This document shows, piece by piece, positions 1 to 64,000 of a stretch of 64,000 nucleotides of DNA (positions are counted from its first letter, which is position 1; each line of letters begins with the position of its first letter). Origin of the DNA: Cellulomonas timonensis (GTDB lineage: Bacteria > Actinomycetota > Actinomycetes > Actinomycetales > Cellulomonadaceae). The stretch lies in contig NZ_FCOT01000008.1 in assembly GCF_900046455.1 (NCBI RefSeq), forward strand, positions 1 to 64,000, written 5' to 3'. The notes beneath the pieces were generated by a model, which saw only the letters and a program-made list of their open reading frames with translations, searched no databases and had not been told where the DNA came from. The position numbers and the translations under genes are program-made.

Positions 1-1353
1 CTCAGCCCCACACCGACTCCCACCCCGACCACCGGCCCCGCCGGGTCGCTCACGCTCTACCCGCAGCAGGGCGGGGGGCTGGCCAGCGCGGCGGGCCCCG
101 GCGGCCAGGTGACGCTGCCCGCCGCCCAGGGGGTCGACGGAGTGTCGGCGCCGCCTGGCGCGGTGGCCTTCACCGCCACCGGCCTCACGGGCACGGCCAC
201 CGGCGGCTCCACCGCGTTCGAGCTGGCGGTGGACGCCGGGCTGTCCGTGGGCAACGGGACGCGCGCGTCGGTGTCCTACGACCTCACCGGCGACGGCACG
301 TGGGACCGCGTCGAGACGTACCGGTACTTCGCCACCGACCCCGTGCCGGGCCCGGAGTCGTACACGCAGGCTGTCGGCCTCGAGACGGCCACGGGCGCGC
401 TGGGCGACCTGGCCGGCGGCTCCGTGCGGGTCGCGGTGTGGAACTCGATCGGCTCGACGTCGAGCACCCTGGTGCTGGGCCCCGGCTCGGTGTTGCGGCT
501 GCCCTTCGCGTCGGCGGCGGCCTCGGGTGGCCCGACGGCCGCCCCGTCGCCGGGCCAGGCGCCAGTGGCGGGCTTGTCTGGCGGGAGCCCCGTGGCTCCG
601 GGACAGGTGGCGTCTCCCCGGGCCGGCAGCCCGCAGACCGCCTCCCGCGTCCCATCGAGCGGACCCCGCGCCTCAGGCTCGACGGCCGTCCGGCCGAGTG
701 GCCCATGGTCGTACGCCGGCAGGGGCTCCGCCGAGGCCTCCGACCCCTCAGAGGATGCCGAGGGCGCCGATGACGGGGACGGCACGGTGCTCGGCGCCGC
801 CCCGGCGCAGTCGGGCGCCTTGCCTTCGACACGCGGCGGGACCACGCAGGGCGCGTCGCCCTCGACGGCGGGGGATGAGCCGGCCCAGGTGATCGTCCAC
901 TCGTCGCTCGCGCTCTCCGCGGTGACCACTGCCGCCGATCGGGCCGCCACCCAGCGCCTGGCGCTGACGGAGGACGGCGCTGGCGCCGCGCAGGGCGAGG
1001 AGCCAGCCGGCGCGCTGGTCTTCGTGGCCCGCGACCTGCAGGGGACGTACCTGAGCACGAGCACCGAGTTCGACTTGTCGGCCGGGTCCCGCGTCCTCGT
1101 CGGCAACGGCACCCGTGTGTCGGTGTCGTACGACCTCACGGGCGACGGCACGTGGGACAGGGTCGAGACGTTCCGCTACGCGGCCACCGAGGAGGGCGCC
1201 GTCGAACGGCATGCGGTGGGCCTGGAGGAGGCGGCCGGCACCCTGGGCCCGCTGGACGGGGGAGCCGTGCGGATCGCGGTGTGGAACGGCCTGGGCCTGG
1301 AGCCCAGCTCGCTCGCGGGAGGCGGCGCGCTCGTTCGGATGCCGCTGCGCTGA
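1..1353 (+). CDS. C-terminal part of a secreted two-repeat protein (5' end outside window)
   Basis: The frame is open from the window edge and has no start, so the N-terminus is missing; 450 residues are visible. It opens with a Pro-Thr linker (SPTPTPTPTT), typical of secreted actinobacterial polysaccharide-active enzymes. Two copies of a roughly 110-residue, probably beta-rich domain follow, at about visible residues 53-171 and 337-450. Both share the core VSYDLTGDGTWDRVET (nucleotides about 274-324 and 1120-1170) and a 'VRVAVWN/VRIAVWN' strand near the end. A Pro/Ser/Gly/Ala-rich linker of about 165 residues separates them. There is no C-terminal sorting signal or membrane segment. I do not know the domain by name; a carbohydrate-binding or accessory module of a glycoside hydrolase is the likeliest role, but the catalytic part is not visible. 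Confidence 0.75.
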   Translation, partial: LSPTPTPTPTTGPAGSLTLYPQQGGGLASAAGPGGQVTLPAAQGVDGVSAPPGAVAFTATGLTGTATGGSTAFELAVDAGLSVGNGTRASVSYDLTGDGTWDRVETYRYFATDPVPGPESYTQAVGLETATGALGDLAGGSVRVAVWNSIGSTSSTLVLGPGSVLRLPFASAAASGGPTAAPSPGQAPVAGLSGGSPVAPGQVASPRAGSPQTASRVPSSGPRASGSTAVRPSGPWSYAGRGSAEASDPSEDAEGADDGDGTVLGAAPAQSGALPSTRGGTTQGASPSTAGDEPAQVIVHSSLALSAVTTAADRAATQRLALTEDGAGAAQGEEPAGALVFVARDLQGTYLSTSTEFDLSAGSRVLVGNGTRVSVSYDLTGDGTWDRVETFRYAATEEGAVERHAVGLEEAAGTLGPLDGGAVRIAVWNGLGLEPSSLAGGGALVRMPLR

Positions 1354-58173: not shown

Positions 58174-59109
58174 TCAGTCCAGCAGGTCCGCGTAGAGGAT
58201 CGACGTCAGGTAGCGCTCGCCGAAGGACGGGATGATCACCACGATGAGCTTGCCCGCGTTCTCCGGGCGGCCCGCGAGCTGGATCGCGGCGTCGAGCGCG
58301 GCGCCGGACGAGATGCCGACGAGCAGCCCCTCCTCCTTCGCGGCGCGGCGCGCGACCTCGACGGCCGTCTCCGCGTTCACGTCGATGATCTCGTCGTAGA
58401 TCTTCTGGTCCAGCACCTCGGGGATGAAGTTCGCCCCGATGCCCTGGATCTTGTGCGGGCCGGGGGCGCCGCCGTTGAGGATGGCCGACTCGGCCGGCTC
58501 CACGCCGACGATCTGCACGCTCGGCTTGCGCTCCTTGAGCACCTGGCCGACACCCGTGATGGTGCCGCCCGTGCCAATGCCGGCGACGACGATGTCGACC
58601 TCGCCGTCCGTGTCCGCCCAGATCTCCTCGGCGGTGGTGCGGCGGTGGATCTCCGGGTTGGCCTCGTTCGCGAACTGGCGCGCGAGCACCGAGCCCGGAC
58701 GCTCCTTCGCGATCTCCTCGGCCTTGTTGACGGCGCCCTTCATGCCCTCCGAGCCGGGGGTCAGCACCAGCTCGGCGCCGAACGCGCGCAGCAGGGCGCG
58801 GCGCTCCTTCGACATCGTCTCCGGCATGGTCAGCACCACGTCGTAGCCGCGCGCCGCGCCGACCATCGCCAGCGCGATGCCGGTGTTGCCGCTCGTGGCC
58901 TCCACGATGGTGCCGCCCGGGGGCAGCTCGCCCGACGCCTCGGCGGCGTCGACGATCGCGACGCCCAGGCGGTCCTTCACGGAGTTGGCCGGGTTGTAGA
59001 ACTCGAGCTTCGCGACGACCGTCGCGCCGAGCCCCTCGGTCAGCCGGTTGATGCGCACGAGCGGGGTGTTGCCGATGAGCTTCGTCGCGTCGTCGTAGAT
59101 GCGGGCCAT
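58174..59109 (-). CDS. cysK: Cysteine synthase (O-acetylserine sulfhydrylase)
   Basis: 311 residues, a PLP enzyme combining O-acetylserine with sulfide to give cysteine. The PLP Lys is in [32 protein letters not shown] is the phosphate/substrate loop; [15 protein letters not shown] binds the PLP phosphate; [11 protein letters not shown] is near the end. The C-terminal segment ends SILYADLLD. Start: ATG at 59109. A 150-nt gap separates it from the Cys-rich leader ORF, whose stop overlaps a hairpin; attenuation by cysteine supply is likely. Confidence 0.96.
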
Positions 59110-59192
59110 GTCGTCCTCGTCTGAACGGGACCGCCGGGGCGGCCAGGGGAGCGCCGGACGCGATCGCGCGCGGCGATGGTGCGAGGTGGGGC

Positions 59193-59260
59193 GAGCGCTG
59201 GCGCGGGGACAGATGCCCGGCGTCGGGCCTCCGCCGTCAGAGGCGGAGCGGCCAGCGCTC
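59193..59260 (-). promoter_or_regulatory. Attenuator-type hairpin at the end of the cysK leader ORF
   Basis: On the minus strand GAGCGCTGGC (59251-59260) pairs perfectly over 10 bp with GCCAGCGCTC (59193-59202). It encloses a second hairpin, CTCCGCC (59242-59248 read in reverse) with GGCGGAG (59229-59235). The first base of the outer stem is the last G of the leader stop codon, so a ribosome on the leader's last Cys codons would cover the 5' arm. No T tract follows, so Rho or ribosome-access control is possible. Confidence 0.6.
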
Positions 59261-59358
59261 TATCGACAGCAGTGCGTGGGACAGCACCGCGTGTGAGAAC
59301 ACTGCGTCGCGTCGCTGACGGCCGGACAGGAGGAGGTGGCGTGCGTGCGCGTGCGCAT
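59260..59358 (-). CDS. Cysteine-rich leader peptide upstream of cysK-cysE
   Basis: A 32-codon ORF, ATG 59358 to TAG 59260. Six Cys: residues 11, 20, 25-26 (TRCCPT) and 30-31 (HCCR, just before the stop). The remainder is Thr, His, Arg and Ser. AGAGGGTG lies about eight bases before the ATG and a promoter (59401-59429) about 45 bases upstream. Six Cys in 32 residues, four in the last eight, is far above expectation. It precedes the cysteine-synthesis operon, so a sensor of Cys-tRNA charging is the natural reading. An in-frame GTG three codons upstream is an alternative start. Confidence 0.72.
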   Translation of the reverse strand: MRTRTHATSSCPAVSDATQCSHTRCCPTHCCR

Positions 59359-59400
59359 CGTGCTCACCCTCTTCCAGGTTGGCGGTCGCAGATGCCTATG

Positions 59401-59429
59401 ACGCTATCCCGTCGCGTTGACGTGCGCAA
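59401..59429 (-). promoter_or_regulatory. Promoter of the cysK leader transcript
   Basis: On the minus strand TTGCGC (59424-59429) and TAGCGT (59401-59406) with a 17-bp spacer fit the actinobacterial housekeeping consensus. Predicted start near 59394, about 36 nt before the leader ATG. Confidence 0.6.
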
Positions 59430-59443
59430 AGGTCGTCCACCCA

Positions 59444-59648
59444 GAGCGGAACGGCGCCCTGGTCAGCGCACGCCCACCGCGTCGAGCCAGGCCTGCGCGA
59501 GCAGCCCGTCTGCTGGCGCGAGCGTCACTCCGTGCTCGGCAGCGAGGTGTCGCACCACCGCGATGCGCGGGTCCAGGTCGGGGCTCCAGGCATGCTGCTC
59601 GGGCCTGACCGGCGTGAGGAAGGGTTCGACGAGCACGATCCGCGCGCC
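59444..59648 (-). pseudogene. Truncated, internally deleted copy of the SGNH hydrolase gene
   Basis: On the minus strand this reads GARIVLVEPFLTPVRPEQHAW, LDPRIAVVRHLAAEHGVTLAPADG, then LLAQAWLDAVGVR and stop (59463). It matches the C-terminal third of the intact gene at 60629-61261, and the match continues past the stop to 59444 (60610 in the other copy). Relative to that gene it lacks the first two thirds and has an 81-bp in-frame deletion removing 27 residues, including the catalytic DGVHP block. It cannot be active. The upstream junction lies at 59648. Confidence 0.8.
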
Positions 59649-59922: not shown

Positions 59923-60282
59923 CTATGAAGGGAGCGCCACAAACTCGATCTCCGAGCATTCGAGCCAGATCGCAAGGAACCCAAAGTCGATCTCGATCAG
60001 CGGGACCTCGGCGTCCAGGTCCCGGATCCAGACGTTCATGAGGAGTCGGAATTCTTCCAATGTGGGGTCGGCCTCCGCTTGCATTTCAAGTATGCGCGAC
60101 ACTGAGAACACTAAAGCAAAGCGCTCGGGGCAGGCTGCCTGTGTGAACTCAAGCCTGAGTTTGGCGTTGGTGAATGTGAACTGCGTGAGGTCCGCGTCGT
60201 TGTGCAGATCAATGCGACCGAGCGGAGTGTCGATTTCTATCGTGTGCTCGTGGTCAATGGGTGAGAGATTTACATATCTCAT
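59923..60282 (-). CDS. Hypothetical protein of the toxin-linked region (orphan-immunity candidate)
   Basis: 119 residues, acidic, with no signal peptide or membrane segment. MRYVNLSPIDHEHTIEIDTP opens it; beta-type segments (RIDLHNDADLTQFTFTNAKLRLEF, ALVFSVSRILEM) are followed by an acidic helical region and hydrophobic strands (LIEIDFGFLAIWLECSEIEFVAL). A clear ribosome-binding site (AAGGGAG, five bases before the ATG) supports it. Codon use is less GC-biased than in the core genes. Small acidic single-domain proteins like this are common as immunity proteins downstream of polymorphic toxins; that assignment is inference from context. Confidence 0.65.
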   Translation of the reverse strand: MRYVNLSPIDHEHTIEIDTPLGRIDLHNDADLTQFTFTNAKLRLEFTQAACPERFALVFSVSRILEMQAEADPTLEEFRLLMNVWIRDLDAEVPLIEIDFGFLAIWLECSEIEFVALPS

Positions 60283-60628
60283 CGTGGCTCCCTTCTTCGA
60301 ACGCGCGCATCGATGGTCGCGCGCTGAGGGGCTGGCCAGCATCTTCGAAGCCTTCGCCCGGATGCTCCCACGGCGGCGTGGTCGCCCTGGAATCGCATTG
60401 TCAAAACGTACAGGCGTACCGGCCTCGTCGGTGAGGGTTTCGAGGTCGGGACGGTGGTATGGCCCGGTGCGGCCCCATGAGCGTCCAGGCGTCAAGTCGC
60501 AGGCAGCAGCGCAAAAGCTGGACTGACGCCGCGATCACCTGGCCGATAATCATGCTGTCCTGCGCTGCGGCGTCCTGTGCGCTCATCGATAGCGGGTTGT
60601 TCACCAGCCGAGCGGAACGGCGCCCTGG
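60283..60628. other. Intergenic stretch without a supported gene
   Basis: A minus-strand frame at 60401-60604 (GTG start, 67 codons, VNNPLSMSAQDAAAQDSMII) begins 25 bp after the SGNH stop. It has no ribosome-binding site and its C-terminal half is Arg/Pro-rich, as chance frames are in GC-rich DNA. I see no RNA gene or clear hairpin. Confidence 0.4.
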
Positions 60629-61261
60629 TCAGCGAACGCCCACCGCGTCGAGCCACGCCTGCGCGAGCAGCCCGTGCCCGGCCGCCGTCGGGTGCACGCC
60701 GTCGAAGCACCACTGCTCGGGCGAGGTGCGCACCGCGGCCGCCGCGAACAGCCCGTCCGCCGGCACGAGCGTCGCCCGGTACTCGGCCGCCATGCGTCGC
60801 ACCACCGCGATGCGCGGGTCCAGATCGGAGCGCCAGGCGTGCTGCTCGGGCTTCACCGGCGTGAGGAACGGCTCGATGAGCACGATCCGCGCGCCCAGGG
60901 CCTCCCGCGTCGAGTCGAGGATCGACCGGAGCGCGTCCTCGTACTCGTCGGTAGATGTGGGCGCGCCGCCGCCCTCGAATCGCCGCCAGGTGTCGTTGAT
61001 GCCGATGAGGATCGACACGACAGTGGGCTCCAGATCGAGCCCGTCCCGCTGCCACCTGTCGCGCAGCATCGTGGAGGTGTCTCCGCCGACGCCCCGGTTG
61101 AGGAACGTGAGCCCCAGATCCGGGCGACGGGCCCCGGCGAGCGACGCCACCACCATCGCGTACCCCGTGCCCAGGCTCGACGCGTCGGAGCGGTCACGGC
61201 CCCAGTCGGTGATCGAGTCGCCGGTCAGCAGCACGCGGTCGCCCGAGTTCAGAAATGTCAT
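60629..61261 (-). CDS. SGNH/GDSL-family hydrolase
   Basis: 210 residues. All four blocks are present: GDSITDWGRDR with the nucleophile Ser, NRGVGGDTSTML with the oxyanion Gly, IGINDTWRRFEGG with the Asn, and CFDGVHPTAAGHGL with the catalytic Asp-x-x-His. It has no signal peptide, so it probably acts in the cytoplasm as an esterase or acyl hydrolase; the substrate is unknown. I chose the ATG at 61261 because the block I motif follows at once; the longer upstream frame shows no homology. A deleted partial copy lies 1.2 kb downstream. Base composition is that of the core genome, unlike its neighbours. Confidence 0.9.
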   Translation of the reverse strand: MTFLNSGDRVLLTGDSITDWGRDRSDASSLGTGYAMVVASLAGARRPDLGLTFLNRGVGGDTSTMLRDRWQRDGLDLEPTVVSILIGINDTWRRFEGGGAPTSTDEYEDALRSILDSTREALGARIVLIEPFLTPVKPEQHAWRSDLDPRIAVVRRMAAEYRATLVPADGLFAAAAVRTSPEQWCFDGVHPTAAGHGLLAQAWLDAVGVR

Positions 61262-61517
61262 GACAGCAACTTCATCACGGAGGGCAGCTCGCGGACTAGT
61301 GCCCAGTACTCGGGTCGATGTCCGGCGGCATGAGTCTGACCCGCGGGCGATGGCCTTGTCGACATGCCCTGGGTAAGGGACCCTCTCGAAACAGCGCGCA
61401 TGCTCCAGGCTGCCTCGACGCACGTGCTTGTTTCGAGCGCGACGTGATATCGAGAATCGAGCGCTGTTCAGCGAATCGCCGAAGACTGCCTCCATTGGTT
61501 CCACGGCCGGGCGGAGG

Positions 61518-62000
61518 CTAACCGAGGCTTCGAGCAACGCGGAGCATCCACTCCAACTCCATCGTGGCAAATGGGAGAAGATGCTGCCCCGACCAATGGT
61601 GTCTCCATTCTCGAATGCTGGTGATTGCGTCGATAGTGCCAATCATGTCATTTAGTAGGCCCTGTAGCTCAGGTGCCATTGGGGCCCGTTGGCCCACCAG
61701 CCGCCATCCGATGTCACCCACTGTCGCAGGTGCCAGGGCGCTGAGCACCAGTGAGGCCGCTGCAAGTGCTCTTTCGCAATCTTCGTCCTGGATCCATGAG
61801 GGTTCGTCCGAGTCGGAGCTGTGGTGGGAGACCTTGGTGATGTCCGATGCCCAGGCGTCGTTGACCCACTTCTTCGACTCGAACGTCGAGCGCCGCTGCA
61901 GCGAGCCTAGGCCCCACGACATCTGTTGGGTCTGCACTATGACGATGTGACGCGAGCCGGGTATCCGAGGGATGCTGGTTCCACCGGGCGAGACGATCAC
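61518..62000 (-). CDS. Hypothetical protein of the toxin-linked region
   Basis: 160 residues from a GTG at 62000; an internal ATG (MSWGLGSLQRRS) is another possible start. Trp-rich (KKWVNDAW, SIREWRHHWSGQH) with a central hydrophobic helix (ALAAASLVLSALAPATVGDIGWRLV) and an amphipathic end (MELEWMLRVARSLG). No signal peptide, no motif I recognise, and no ribosome-binding site before either start. It lies in the accessory tract after the RHS toxin and may be an orphan immunity gene or a relic. Confidence 0.5.
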   Translation of the reverse strand: MIVSPGGTSIPRIPGSRHIVIVQTQQMSWGLGSLQRRSTFESKKWVNDAWASDITKVSHHSSDSDEPSWIQDEDCERALAAASLVLSALAPATVGDIGWRLVGQRAPMAPELQGLLNDMIGTIDAITSIREWRHHWSGQHLLPFATMELEWMLRVARSLG

Positions 62001-62022
62001 GTCGGCTGGGTCGCACGTCCGA

Positions 62023-62220
62023 TCAAAAAGCCTGCGATCTCGCCTGGGCTTCGTGCACCCACCGCTGGGCGAAGGAGAGAGTGAATCGAGGAGTCTCCCA
62101 CTGGTCCGGCTCCTCGATCGATGTCAAGACGATTCCGCGCCCCTCTATCTCGGGGACCACCTCCCAAACAACTGGAGAAATTGAGGATCTATAAAAGTCG
62201 AAAGTTCCATCCTCTCGTCG
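62023..62220 (-). pseudogene. Start-less remnant of a small gene (probable immunity relic)
   Basis: On the minus strand one frame ending in TGA (62023-62025) reads as an ordinary globular protein: EDGTFDFYRSSISPVVWEVV, IEGRGIVLTSIEEPDQWETP, FTLSFAQRWVHEAQARSQAF. No ATG, GTG or TTG precedes this in the frame before a stop near 62239; the first GTG lies well inside. Its acidic, Trp-containing C-terminus and position behind a toxin-immunity pair suggest a truncated immunity-type gene. A start lost by deletion or a frameshift would explain it. Confidence 0.5.
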
Positions 62221-62253
62221 GGTCAGATCGTGTCGGGACTATTTAATTCTTGG

Positions 62254-62279
62254 CCTCCTGAACGAAAATGTTCAGGAGG
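62254..62279 (-). terminator. Terminator-like hairpin downstream of the immunity gene
   Basis: CCTCCTGAAC (62254-62263) pairs perfectly over 10 bp with GTTCAGGAGG (62270-62279), with a 6-nt loop GAAAAT. It lies about 160 bp after the coupled immunity-type gene. Confidence 0.55.
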
Positions 62280-62439
62280 GTCTTTCTGGCCTGGGATCGG
62301 AACGAAGGAGAATCATCAGCGCGTCCTTGTGACTCGGATGGTATGCACCATCGCTCCCTGCCCGGGTAGTCCGGCATCGATTTGCAGCCGGTCGGAGTTT
62401 GGCGATGCTTCGGTCGCGGTCAAAGTGCTCGTGACATGC

Positions 62440-62790
62440 TCAATCGGACGTTCTTGATAGCGCGATTACCTCGTCGACGACCTCGCCGCTCTCGAGCGCG
62501 GTATCAATCTCATCGAACGAGAGAGGGCCGTGGATTACCCAATTTGACAGATCTGTTCCCCGCACCGCGTATTGACCTTCACGAAGGGAGAGCGAGTGCA
62601 GGCTTGGGTCAGCATCTGAGAGGGTATGAAAATGGACGGCGATAGGCTCAGAAGTAGATTCCTCGCTCGCGGAGATGAGCATCCAACCGGAGTCCCAAGC
62701 GACTACCACGGTGACTGGGGCGCCATCGAGCACTTCCCTGCTGGTCGTGACAGTGTCTTCTCCACGAGGGCGCCGGCGTCTCGTTCTCAT
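62440..62790 (-). CDS. Putative immunity protein coupled to the RHS-HNH toxin
   Basis: 116 residues. A basic N-terminus (MRTRRRRPRGED) leads into a beta-rich acidic body: APVTVVVAWDSGWMLISASEE, IAVHFHTLSDADPSLHSLSLREGQYAV, LSNWVIHGPLSFDEIDTALESGEVVDEVIAL. Its ATG overlaps the toxin stop (ATGA), so the two are translated together, the usual arrangement for contact-dependent toxin and cognate immunity protein. I do not recognise an immunity family; the function rests on position, size and coupling. Confidence 0.7.
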   Translation of the reverse strand: MRTRRRRPRGEDTVTTSREVLDGAPVTVVVAWDSGWMLISASEESTSEPIAVHFHTLSDADPSLHSLSLREGQYAVRGTDLSNWVIHGPLSFDEIDTALESGEVVDEVIALSRTSD

Positions 62791-63884
62791 ATTCTGTTTC
62801 CCTTGATGTTGTTGCATCGCGCGCACTTGGCCTGTCTATTCCAAGGGGAATTATTGCCGTCTTTCGAGCGCGGAACTATGTGGTCAAGCTCGACCTGTTG
62901 CATATCTTTGCGACCGCCCCTCGGGACGCTACGGGCTTGTGTCATCACTTTACCGCAGGTTGGACACGCCTTGCCCACCGCCGCCGATCGTGCGAGCCTG
63001 TCGGAGGATCTCGTGAAACCTGCGCCACTTTTGAACCGTTTGATGGTCGCCGTCCGCAGGACGCGAGTGGTTGCCGCTTGGTTCCGGGCTAGTTGACCGC
63101 CTCGAGCCACGCGCCCGGCAATCTTGGCACCCACTGCGACTACAGCTCCGGCGCCGACAAGAGCCAAGGCGACGGTGGCCGCCATCATCAGTGCCTTCTT
63201 CTTGTCACCTACTGCTGCGTATGCGACGGCGGACACCCCCGCTGCCGCGGCCCCGATGGGTCCGGGGATCATTGAGGCGACTTCGCCCACGACGGCGAGC
63301 GTCTTGAGTGCGCCCTTCCAAGAGAACGTCCCGGCGAGGTCGGTGCAGTTGACGGGGTCGGCGTTGCAGTAGTCGTAGGCGGAGGCCGAGCCGCCCGCGA
63401 CGGGGTCGACGGAGAGGAACCGGCCGAGGGGTGCGGAGTAGAGGCGTACGCCCATGAGGATCACGCCACCGAGGGCCTCGGCTGAGCGTTGTGCTGCTCC
63501 GAGCCATCCATACCGTGCGGGCGGCCCGGTGGTGGACCCTGCTCCGGACATCTGTTGCGGTACGCCGAATTCGTCGAACGATGTGAAGGACAGCTCCTGC
63601 CATGTCGCATTGGTGGCCCCGTCTGCGATCGGAAGGGTGGCTGTGACGTCCCCGTGAAGATCGACGAGATTGAGCGTGCGGCCACCTGTGAGGGTGGTTG
63701 TGATTGCGAGGTCGCCTTCGACGCCGGCAACGTATCGGGTGACATCGGACGGGAGGGTGGAGTCTTCCTGAATCGTTGCCCGTCGACCATTCTTTTCCGA
63801 AAGGAGACCACAGTTCGCGGACCGATAGGTCGTCGAAGTACACCGGTTTGCTTGCTGACGAGAATCCGTTGTACATTCGCACAA
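62787..63884 (-). CDS. C-terminal part of an RHS-repeat polymorphic toxin with HNH nuclease domain
   Basis: From about residue 45 the frame reads as an RHS core: DVTRYVAGVEGDLAITTTLTGG, NLVDLHGDVTATLP and the terminal RHS-associated block GVRLYSAPLGRFLSVDPVAGGSASAYDYCNADPVNCTDLAGTF, where the toxin is normally cleaved off. A hydrophobic Ala/Gly stretch follows, then an HNH endonuclease domain: a zinc-type CPTCGK, LDHIVPRSKDGNNSPWN and CARCNNIKG. It probably cuts DNA in rival cells after delivery. The first 30 or so codons of this frame are not RHS-like; the proper upstream sequence is in another frame (63791-64000), so a frameshift splits the gene. Its stop overlaps the immunity ATG. Confidence 0.82.
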   Translation of the reverse strand: MCECTTDSRQQANRCTSTTYRSANCGLLSEKNGRRATIQEDSTLPSDVTRYVAGVEGDLAITTTLTGGRTLNLVDLHGDVTATLPIADGATNATWQELSFTSFDEFGVPQQMSGAGSTTGPPARYGWLGAAQRSAEALGGVILMGVRLYSAPLGRFLSVDPVAGGSASAYDYCNADPVNCTDLAGTFSWKGALKTLAVVGEVASMIPGPIGAAAAGVSAVAYAAVGDKKKALMMAATVALALVGAGAVVAVGAKIAGRVARGGQLARNQAATTRVLRTATIKRFKSGAGFTRSSDRLARSAAVGKACPTCGKVMTQARSVPRGGRKDMQQVELDHIVPRSKDGNNSPWNRQAKCARCNNIKGNRI

Positions 63885-64000
63885 AGGCCTCTGTCGCTCC
63901 GGACGGGATCGTCACGTCGACGCTAATCTGCTGCCACGCGTTGGTCAGAGTCGGGCGTTGGGTAATTGCCCCCGTGCTTATCGGTTCGCTGTAGGCGCCC
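63791..64000 (-). CDS. Upstream part of the same RHS protein, other frame, continuing past the window
   Basis: On the minus strand this frame, open from the window edge, reads ITQRPTLTNAWQQISVDVTIPSGATEAFVRMY then SKPVYFDDLSVREL, the end of a carbohydrate-binding-like jelly-roll module often found just before the final RHS core. Beyond 63791 the frame runs into low-complexity sequence while the RHS core continues one base out of register. Removing one base in the TTTCGGAAAAG stretch (63791-63802) would join them. Either the gene is inactivated or the assembly has an error there. Confidence 0.65.

Follow-up and report, generated by a model that had tools for sequence, protein, structure and literature searches.

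A putative cysteine-tRNA attenuator with a stop-anchored hairpin ahead of cysK-cysE in Cellulomonas timonensis and its relatives

Cysteine leaders and the cysK locus

In attenuators of the trp and his type, the leader contains codons for the regulated amino acid, a hairpin follows, and the position of the ribosome decides the outcome; in the tnaC leader of E. coli, free tryptophan is sensed through arrest of the nascent chain. For the cysteine genes of Mycobacterium smegmatis, a stalled ribosome reportedly frees the ribosome-binding site from mRNA structure, and the same work of 2020 is said to have proposed that ribosomes coordinate a cysteine regulon. Candidate leaders of this general kind were described in 2005 upstream of the cys operons of Mycobacterium and of Propionibacterium acnes, and upstream of cbs in Bifidobacterium longum (PMC1262725); for the mycobacterial leaders, the accessible text of that paper finds no conserved transcription-terminating hairpin and suggests a role for Rho (Seliverstov 2005, PMC1262725). 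Conserved Cys-rich upstream ORFs were reported in mycobacteria in 2015 (Shell 2015, PMC4633059), and were then presented as cysteine-responsive attenuators, acting by translation attenuation according to a passage that cites the work (Canestrari 2020). In the Alphaproteobacteria, the uORFC-8-2 motif (found upstream of cysS in Rhodobacterales) likewise combines a Cys-codon leader with stems and has been read as ribosome-mediated attenuation; as the available sections of the paper describe it, its tandem Cys codons lie inside the first stem, and a U-run stands at its 3' end (PMC8632094). Among the papers listed by literature searches whose coverage leaves out most subscription papers, none deals with cysK leaders of the genera considered below that have a stem anchored on the stop codon. 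Attenuation by Cys leaders is known in actinobacteria; a structured, stop-anchored hairpin design appears to be new.

The leader described here lies in a 64,000-nucleotide stretch of Cellulomonas timonensis DNA (the whole of which was analysed, and which is termed the ‘window’), and all of its parts are on the minus strand. A promoter-like sequence, TTGCGC-17-TAGCGT, can be read at 59429-59424 (-35 element) and 59406-59401 (-10 element), with a 17-nt spacer between the two. It is followed by what is presumably a 5' UTR (about 36 nt) that carries a Shine-Dalgarno sequence (GGAAGAGGG, 59375-59367), and then by the leader ORF (59358-59260), which begins with ATG at 59358 and comprises 32 codons and a UAG stop; an alternative in-frame GTG start is possible at 59367. 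The encoded peptide, MRTRTHATSSCPAVSDATQCSHTRCCPTHCCR, contains six cysteines, four of them within the last eight codons, and ends CCPTHCCR-UAG. The G of the stop codon (59262-59260) is the first base of a perfect 10-bp outer stem, the arms of which are supported by covariation: a 5' arm (GAGCGCUGGC, 59260-59251) pairs with a 3' arm (GCCAGCGCUC, 59202-59193), and the two enclose an inner hairpin of 7 bp (CUCCGCC at 59248-59242 with GGCGGAG at 59235-59229) that is supported by RNA folding and by a compensated change. The sequence GCCCC directly follows the 3' arm (59192-59188), at the head of an untranslated stretch (59192-59110) that is C-rich and G-poor across the leader set and that ends at the first of two genes: a cysteine synthase of the PALP family (PF00291, 59109-58174) and a serine acetyltransferase with hexapeptide repeats (PF00132, 58172-57582), which from their context and from general knowledge we take to be cysK and cysE. 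The promoter, the six-Cys ORF of 32 codons and both stems had been pointed out in an earlier note on this DNA, and their coordinates hold.

Within the window, when all complete ORFs with an ATG, GTG or TTG start were scanned on both strands, the cysK leader ORF alone had at least three cysteines in its last 10 residues. RNA folding of the window leader gives both stems (z -1.97), and 8 of 200 shuffled sequences fold equally well. A stricter sigma-70 consensus scan of 59100-59520 reported no promoter, and no U-tract terminator was found in that same interval, which sets the hairpin apart from textbook intrinsic terminators. A profile search of NCBIfam with the leader peptide, at both of its possible lengths, returned no families; Rfam 15, at the gathering threshold and at a second threshold, returned tRNAs from the window and no family on the leader element, and one sub-threshold match fell on the opposite strand (E 5.4). 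With the -10 element ending at 59401, the ATG at 59358 and a Shine-Dalgarno sequence present, and with the transcription start predicted from sequence, the arrangement suggests a transcript that is not leaderless.

Several features align this locus with the actinobacterial leaders of PMC1262725, PMC4633059 and Canestrari 2020, as far as the accessible parts of those papers describe them: Cys codons stand near the end of a short upstream ORF before cysteine genes, a genome can have more than one such leader, and a ribosome-mediated response to cysteine is proposed. Unlike the mycobacterial leaders as they appear in the available text (PMC1262725), the cysK leader has a covarying stem that starts on the UAG, it appears to have a 5' UTR and a Shine-Dalgarno sequence of its own, and the mean accessibility of the cysK Shine-Dalgarno sequence is unchanged when stalling is modelled (see below). 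It also differs from uORFC-8-2, in that its Cys codons precede the stem and a U-run is found in only one of 91 distinct aligned sequences.

Recurrence in relatives and covariation of the stem

The ORF, its Cys codons, the UAG, the promoter and the stem turn up again in relatives, among which the stem covaries. Relatives were gathered with the CysK protein (311 aa) from 59 whole genomes, of which 57 had a match and 30 loci were fetched; these were followed by further relatives (at least 80 named loci, including Cellulomonas, Oerskovia, Actinotalea, Isoptericola, Promicromonospora, Demequina and Arthrobacter) and by an additional sample of 20 more cysK upstream stretches. The identity of CysK with that of Cellulomonas and its neighbours reaches 88-89%. 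Nineteen of the first 30 loci have an ORF with at least three cysteines in its last 14 codons (ending in TAG in 18 of the 19); in eight of the remaining 11, an ORF has two or more cysteines in its last 10 codons. Across 125 distinct cysK upstream regions, a set that includes lineages without the element, an ORF with at least three cysteines in its last 10 codons was found in 42, as compared with 0.5% of 2500 shuffled sequences, and one with at least two in 62, as compared with 7.1% of shuffles. With any stop codon allowed, TAG ends 37 of those 42 Cys-tailed ORFs and TGA the other five.

The leader peptides themselves diverge widely (for example ...SCCCCPGCR, ...MCCCCL and ...ACCRCL), and the cysteines lie close before the stop. 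What is found ahead of cysK, a cysteine gene, is a short upstream ORF with Cys codons clustered near its stop, and it is those codons, not the peptide sequence, that are conserved among relatives. Of 61 leaders, from 56 distinct regions, 49 have a promoter pattern of the form TTGNNN-(16-19)-TANNNT upstream, as compared with 0.9% of shuffles, and in 57 of the 61 an SD-like tetramer stands before an in-frame start. The earlier note had made its reading depend on conservation in relatives; the Cys-rich leader, the promoter and the stop-anchored stem are all present there. Some leaders depart from this arrangement: three leaders that end in UGA (L005, L040 and L041, the last two named Cellulosimicrobium) keep the Cys run and show no consistent stop-anchored stem, and L041 alone offers a partner for the arm, at a distance and matched by 9 of 200 shuffles; two others (L006 and L032) possess the UAG and likewise show no consistent stem anchored on it; and in L190 the Cys codons and the stem are present and the UAG is absent.

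Pairing of the stem was examined in 62 leaders: the G of UAG was taken as the first base of the arm, and the best partner of that arm within 120 nt was identified. The mean score is 23.4 when the arm is matched to its own downstream region, versus 17.5 with the regions of leaders that have a different arm. Judged one at a time, 42 of the 62 leaders are equalled or exceeded by no more than 10 of 200 shuffles of the region downstream of them; the other 20, which have mostly 7-bp stems, fail to beat 190 of the 200.

Covariation was assessed in a 43-row MAFFT alignment (A1) of selected leaders, from which 19 of the 62 pattern-matching leaders had been dropped, so that the selection favours the stem. 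In A1 the outer stem is paired in 95.3% of cells; both sides have changed at six of its 10 pairs, with 22 such cells compared with 3.9 in shuffled alignments, and the covariation score is 0.198 compared with 0.105. None of 500 shuffles reaches that score, nor any of four of the five measures used, and one of the 500 reaches the fifth. When the partner is slid out of register, pairing falls to 26-44%, and RNAalifold, applied to A1 unaided, predicts nine of the 10 outer-stem pairs. The invariance of two features of A1, the TAG and the C that directly follows the final Cys codon, is due to selection, as the pattern that defined the leader set required both. Of the 19 sequences set aside, L063 is a false match, five (L006, L032, L020, L022 and L029) have no clear stem in register, and four (L053, L055, L114 and L119) are duplicates; the remaining nine (L004, L017, L037, L045, L058, L062, L113, L115 and L116) have 7-bp stems, short loops or distant 3' arms.

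Eight of those nine are among the sources of a wider, model-based search of 100 sequences, which gave 108 matches (97 with TAG in place, 91 of them distinct). The resulting 91-row alignment, which is fitted to the model, displays the same pattern: position 6 is CG in 58 rows and UA in 19, and position 7 is UA in 65, CG in 19 and GC in three. GCCCC follows the 3' arm in 38 of these distinct rows. At least four U in the six bases after the stem are found in L111 only, a relative of lower GC content in which the hairpin (111-177, minus strand) is followed by UUUUUC and resembles a textbook terminator. The inner hairpin, for which the earlier note had also suggested a covariation check, offers a single compensated change between close relatives, CUCCGCC/GGCGGAG in L001 corresponding to CUCCACC/GGUGGAG in L002 (G-C to A-U). 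For these two leaders, the automatic search had chosen another 3' arm, and in the stem-set, composition and folding analyses it was replaced manually by the perfect 10-bp partner. Covariation of the outer stem marks a conserved RNA structure, and modelling suggests that it may be changed by the position of a ribosome.

A model built from the 43 aligned sequences (R1) was then used to trace the distribution of the hairpin; the window sequence was in its training set, so the E-value of the window itself is no evidence. R1 has one strong match in its own genome, at the window leader. At E 0.1 it has matches in 76 of the 101 family genomes searched (and none in the other 25); it matches 58 of 297 in the order at E 0.01, and three of 394 in the class at E 0.001, one of which is an unrelated place in genome G041. 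In 27 genomes for which the positions of both cysK and the R1 match were at hand, the best match lies just upstream of cysK, by a comparison made by eye and with many of the sequences having trained R1. Inspection of 31 further match places found 17 ahead of cysK, one at a third leader and 13 that were unrelated: among 16 weaker or second matches, six were ahead of cysK (L177 and L179-L183), one (L168) was the third leader and nine were unrelated, and among 15 order-level matches, 11 were ahead of cysK and four (L191, L192, L193 and L196) were unrelated. Copies upstream of cysK in other families have different stem sequences, such as GAGCGCAC with GUGCGCUC in L194. The element is a covarying hairpin of non-mycobacterial genera, with a geometry that can be tested, and is a candidate addition to Rfam.

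How the leader may act

The cysK leader is probably a cysteine-tRNA attenuator, switched by a ribosome that would stall on the last Cys codons and so cover the hairpin's base. Transcription would start just below the promoter, and a ribosome would translate the leader. When Cys-tRNA is ample, the Cys codons would be read through, translation would terminate at the UAG and the ribosome would leave; the stop-anchored stem could then close, and the passage of RNA polymerase into cysK-cysE would be reduced. When Cys-tRNA is short, the ribosome would stall on the Cys codons before the UAG and would cover both that codon and the lower 5' arm, so that the stem would stay open and cysK-cysE would be transcribed. 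The ribosome itself would be the switch, without an antiterminator helix, and Rho may help at the C-rich stretch after the stem. Such a design would share with trp- and his-type attenuators the codons of the regulated amino acid in the leader, the hairpin next to them and the deciding role of ribosome position, and would depart from them in that no antiterminator helix was found and no U-tract is present at the window locus, the ribosome blocking the hairpin directly. It would resemble tnaC in holding a ribosome at the end of the leader beside a Rho-prone stretch, and differ from it in sensing starvation for a charged tRNA and in possessing a covarying hairpin.

The suggestion of the earlier note that a paused ribosome would keep the outer stem open agrees with the geometry. 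The accessible text of PMC4833913 gives a ribosome a footprint of about 12 nt beyond the codon under translation; by that figure, a ribosome on the last Cys codon would extend into the 5' arm, and one on the UAG would cover nearly all of it. The partial cover from the last Cys codon counts against the attenuator, as do the missing U-tract and antiterminator, the loci in which the stem or the UAG is absent, the 20 leaders with weak arm pairing, the 19 leaders dropped from A1 and the 25 family genomes in which R1 had no match. For the E. coli terminator tR2, the available part of a study indicates nearly complete repression at a position a few base pairs past a gene (PMC4824070); in these leaders the 3' arm ends at a median distance of 57 nt past the UAG (91 rows), a spacing that might give a released ribosome time to leave. 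In folding models of 53 leaders (L063, L006, L032, L020, L053, L022 and duplicates being omitted), the outer stem has a mean probability of 0.87 in the free state, and blocking the bases that a stalled ribosome would occupy reduces the exposure of the tract after the stem from 0.60 to 0.44.

The earlier note had held that all parts of an attenuator were in order. The Cys leader, the promoter and the stem bear this out; the statement is too strong in that no U-tract follows the stem here and the search for an antiterminator found none. Pairing of the 5' arm with the leader-ORF region, where an antiterminator was sought in 56 leaders, scores 16.2 versus 17.1 in shuffled sequences, and none was found; alternative helices of other kinds were viewed by folding only. 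We infer stalling, premature termination of transcription as the output and a helping role of Rho. Since no antiterminator was found and the mean accessibility of the cysK Shine-Dalgarno sequence does not change in the model, premature termination of transcription, perhaps assisted by Rho, is favoured as the output; the C-rich composition of the stretch after the stem (given below) and the U-tract of L111 speak for it too.

An output at the level of translation, in which the stalled ribosome would free the cysK ribosome-binding site from mRNA structure, has the closest experimentally tested precedent in actinobacteria (the cysteine genes of Mycobacterium smegmatis, as far as the accessible account of Canestrari 2020 goes). 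When stalling was modelled in 61 leaders (nine of whose loci ended before cysK and were supplied with a stand-in start), access to the cysK Shine-Dalgarno sequence rose by more than 0.05 in 26% and fell in 11%; the mean, however, was 0.520 in the free state and 0.521 in the stalled state, with corresponding stalled and free values of 0.457 and 0.488 for the window leader, and a mean of 122 nt separates the stem from the start of cysK. On average, the folding model speaks against masking of the cysK Shine-Dalgarno sequence, and translational attenuation is rather unlikely at this locus.

Control by Rho alone, of the kind seen in tnaC, would have the leader set the loading of Rho on the C-rich stretch and would leave the stem a part in RNA stability or processing. 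Rho prefers a C-rich, G-poor composition, and the stretch between stem and cysK answers to that description: its mean C content is 0.457 and its mean G content 0.266 (56 leaders), and a C/G ratio above 1.3 is found after the stem in 98% of these 56, as compared with 32% of 68 cysK upstream regions that do not have the element. Some loci have a Cys leader without such a stem, and Rho has already been proposed for the mycobacterial cys leaders, in the accessible text of PMC1262725. Against these points, the stem shows covariation and has its first base in the stop codon, and it does so again in an unrelated leader at a PF03601 locus (described below), which is more than a mere stability element needs; Rho acting in this manner by itself is accordingly improbable.

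Arrest by the nascent peptide or at the stop codon, where a C-terminal Cys-Arg or Cys-Leu, or slow release at UAG, rather than a lack of Cys-tRNA, would hold the ribosome, would account for some regularities at the end of the ORF. The series of Cys codons closes with UGU in 55 of 56 distinct leaders, and Arg or Leu comes directly after it in 53 of the 56 (the search pattern having required a C at the start of the codon for this residue); further upstream, UGC and UGU are found 30 and 25 times at the penultimate Cys codon, 18 and 21 times at the third from the end, and 20 and three times at the fourth, and the Cys codons counted in genes of the window are UGC five times and UGU once. The predominance of TAG among the Cys-tailed ORFs points the same way. 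However, the remainder of the peptide is not conserved, the leaders at the PF03601 locus have the tails ACRCR and ACTCR, and the UAG is explicable by the pairing of its G in the stem, all of which makes such an arrest very unlikely. No pairing partner was found for the recurrent CUGUC, its observed pairing lying below that of shuffled sequences in all three regions tried. Finally, a chance ORF adjoining an unrelated hairpin, as high GC content can readily yield and as the z value of the window fold alone might allow, can be dismissed with near certainty in view of the only Cys-tailed ORF in 64 kb, the arm pairing, the covariation, the recurrence and the promoter pattern relative to shuffles.

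Returning to the cysteine-tRNA attenuator, a broader and distinctly tentative proposal is that such leaders form a compact class without an antiterminator, used more than once per genome, in which the stop codon is the first base of the hairpin and the reach of the ribosome sets the switch; the UAG, the UGU codon ahead of it and the C-tract after the stem would then be working parts, serving release timing and Rho loading. For GC-rich bacteria, the leader might be a case of attenuation without a U-tract.

Other cysteine leaders and neighbouring features

A second polycysteine leader ORF (MSHPMPVSRHRQSRCRPRRCCCCPQPHRPRV, 54867-54772, minus strand) ends in UGA and lies ahead of an ABC transporter operon that encodes an ATPase (54630-53803), an NMT1/THI5-like binding protein (53754-52702) and a permease (52602-51682). 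A similar leader is present in six of 20 other loci of relatives (L208, L210, L211, L212, L214 and L215), and L221 carries a Cys-rich ORF of another kind. Leaders of this type have a UGA stop and a Cys run several codons upstream of it, and are therefore of another design.

Pattern searches of the same genome recovered two leaders that were already known and seven places that were read as unrelated. A third Cys leader, MTTLAACARALVPAAPRASACRCR-UAG, was met on another contig (C11) as a weak R1 match (L168/L199, 595716-595758, minus strand, E 0.29), preceding a 56-aa ORF and then a PF03601 (Cons_hypoth698) gene. Here too the G of UAG is the first base of the stem; the stem's sequence is unrelated to that of the cysK leader (GCCGAGAGG with CCUCUCGGC), and GCCCC follows. 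Among five other genomes with the PF03601 gene, the leader is kept in four and none was seen in one; in two of the four, the arms are GCCGGGAGG with CCUCCCGGC, a compensated change between species. The earlier note had taken two Cys leaders 4.5 kb apart to suggest a local cysteine regulon. The second leader is indeed present, and there are several in one genome; the word ‘local’ is what the leader on C11 qualifies. Three Cys leaders in a single genome (for cysK, the ABC transporter and the PF03601 gene) fit the proposal that ribosomes coordinate a regulon.

Upstream of the cysK promoter, and adjoining it, a short ORF (59711-59463, minus strand) nearly repeats parts of the C-terminal half of a longer ORF (61642-60629, minus strand), which we presume resembles an SGNH/GDSL hydrolase; from the sequences compared, the short ORF is perhaps a truncated duplicate of the longer one. 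The GC content of positions 60001-64000 is 0.626, and that of the remaining 4-kb windows is at least 0.714. This low-GC segment contains an ORF (63884-62787, minus strand) that presumably resembles an RHS-core protein with an HNH-type tail, and it has possibly been acquired.
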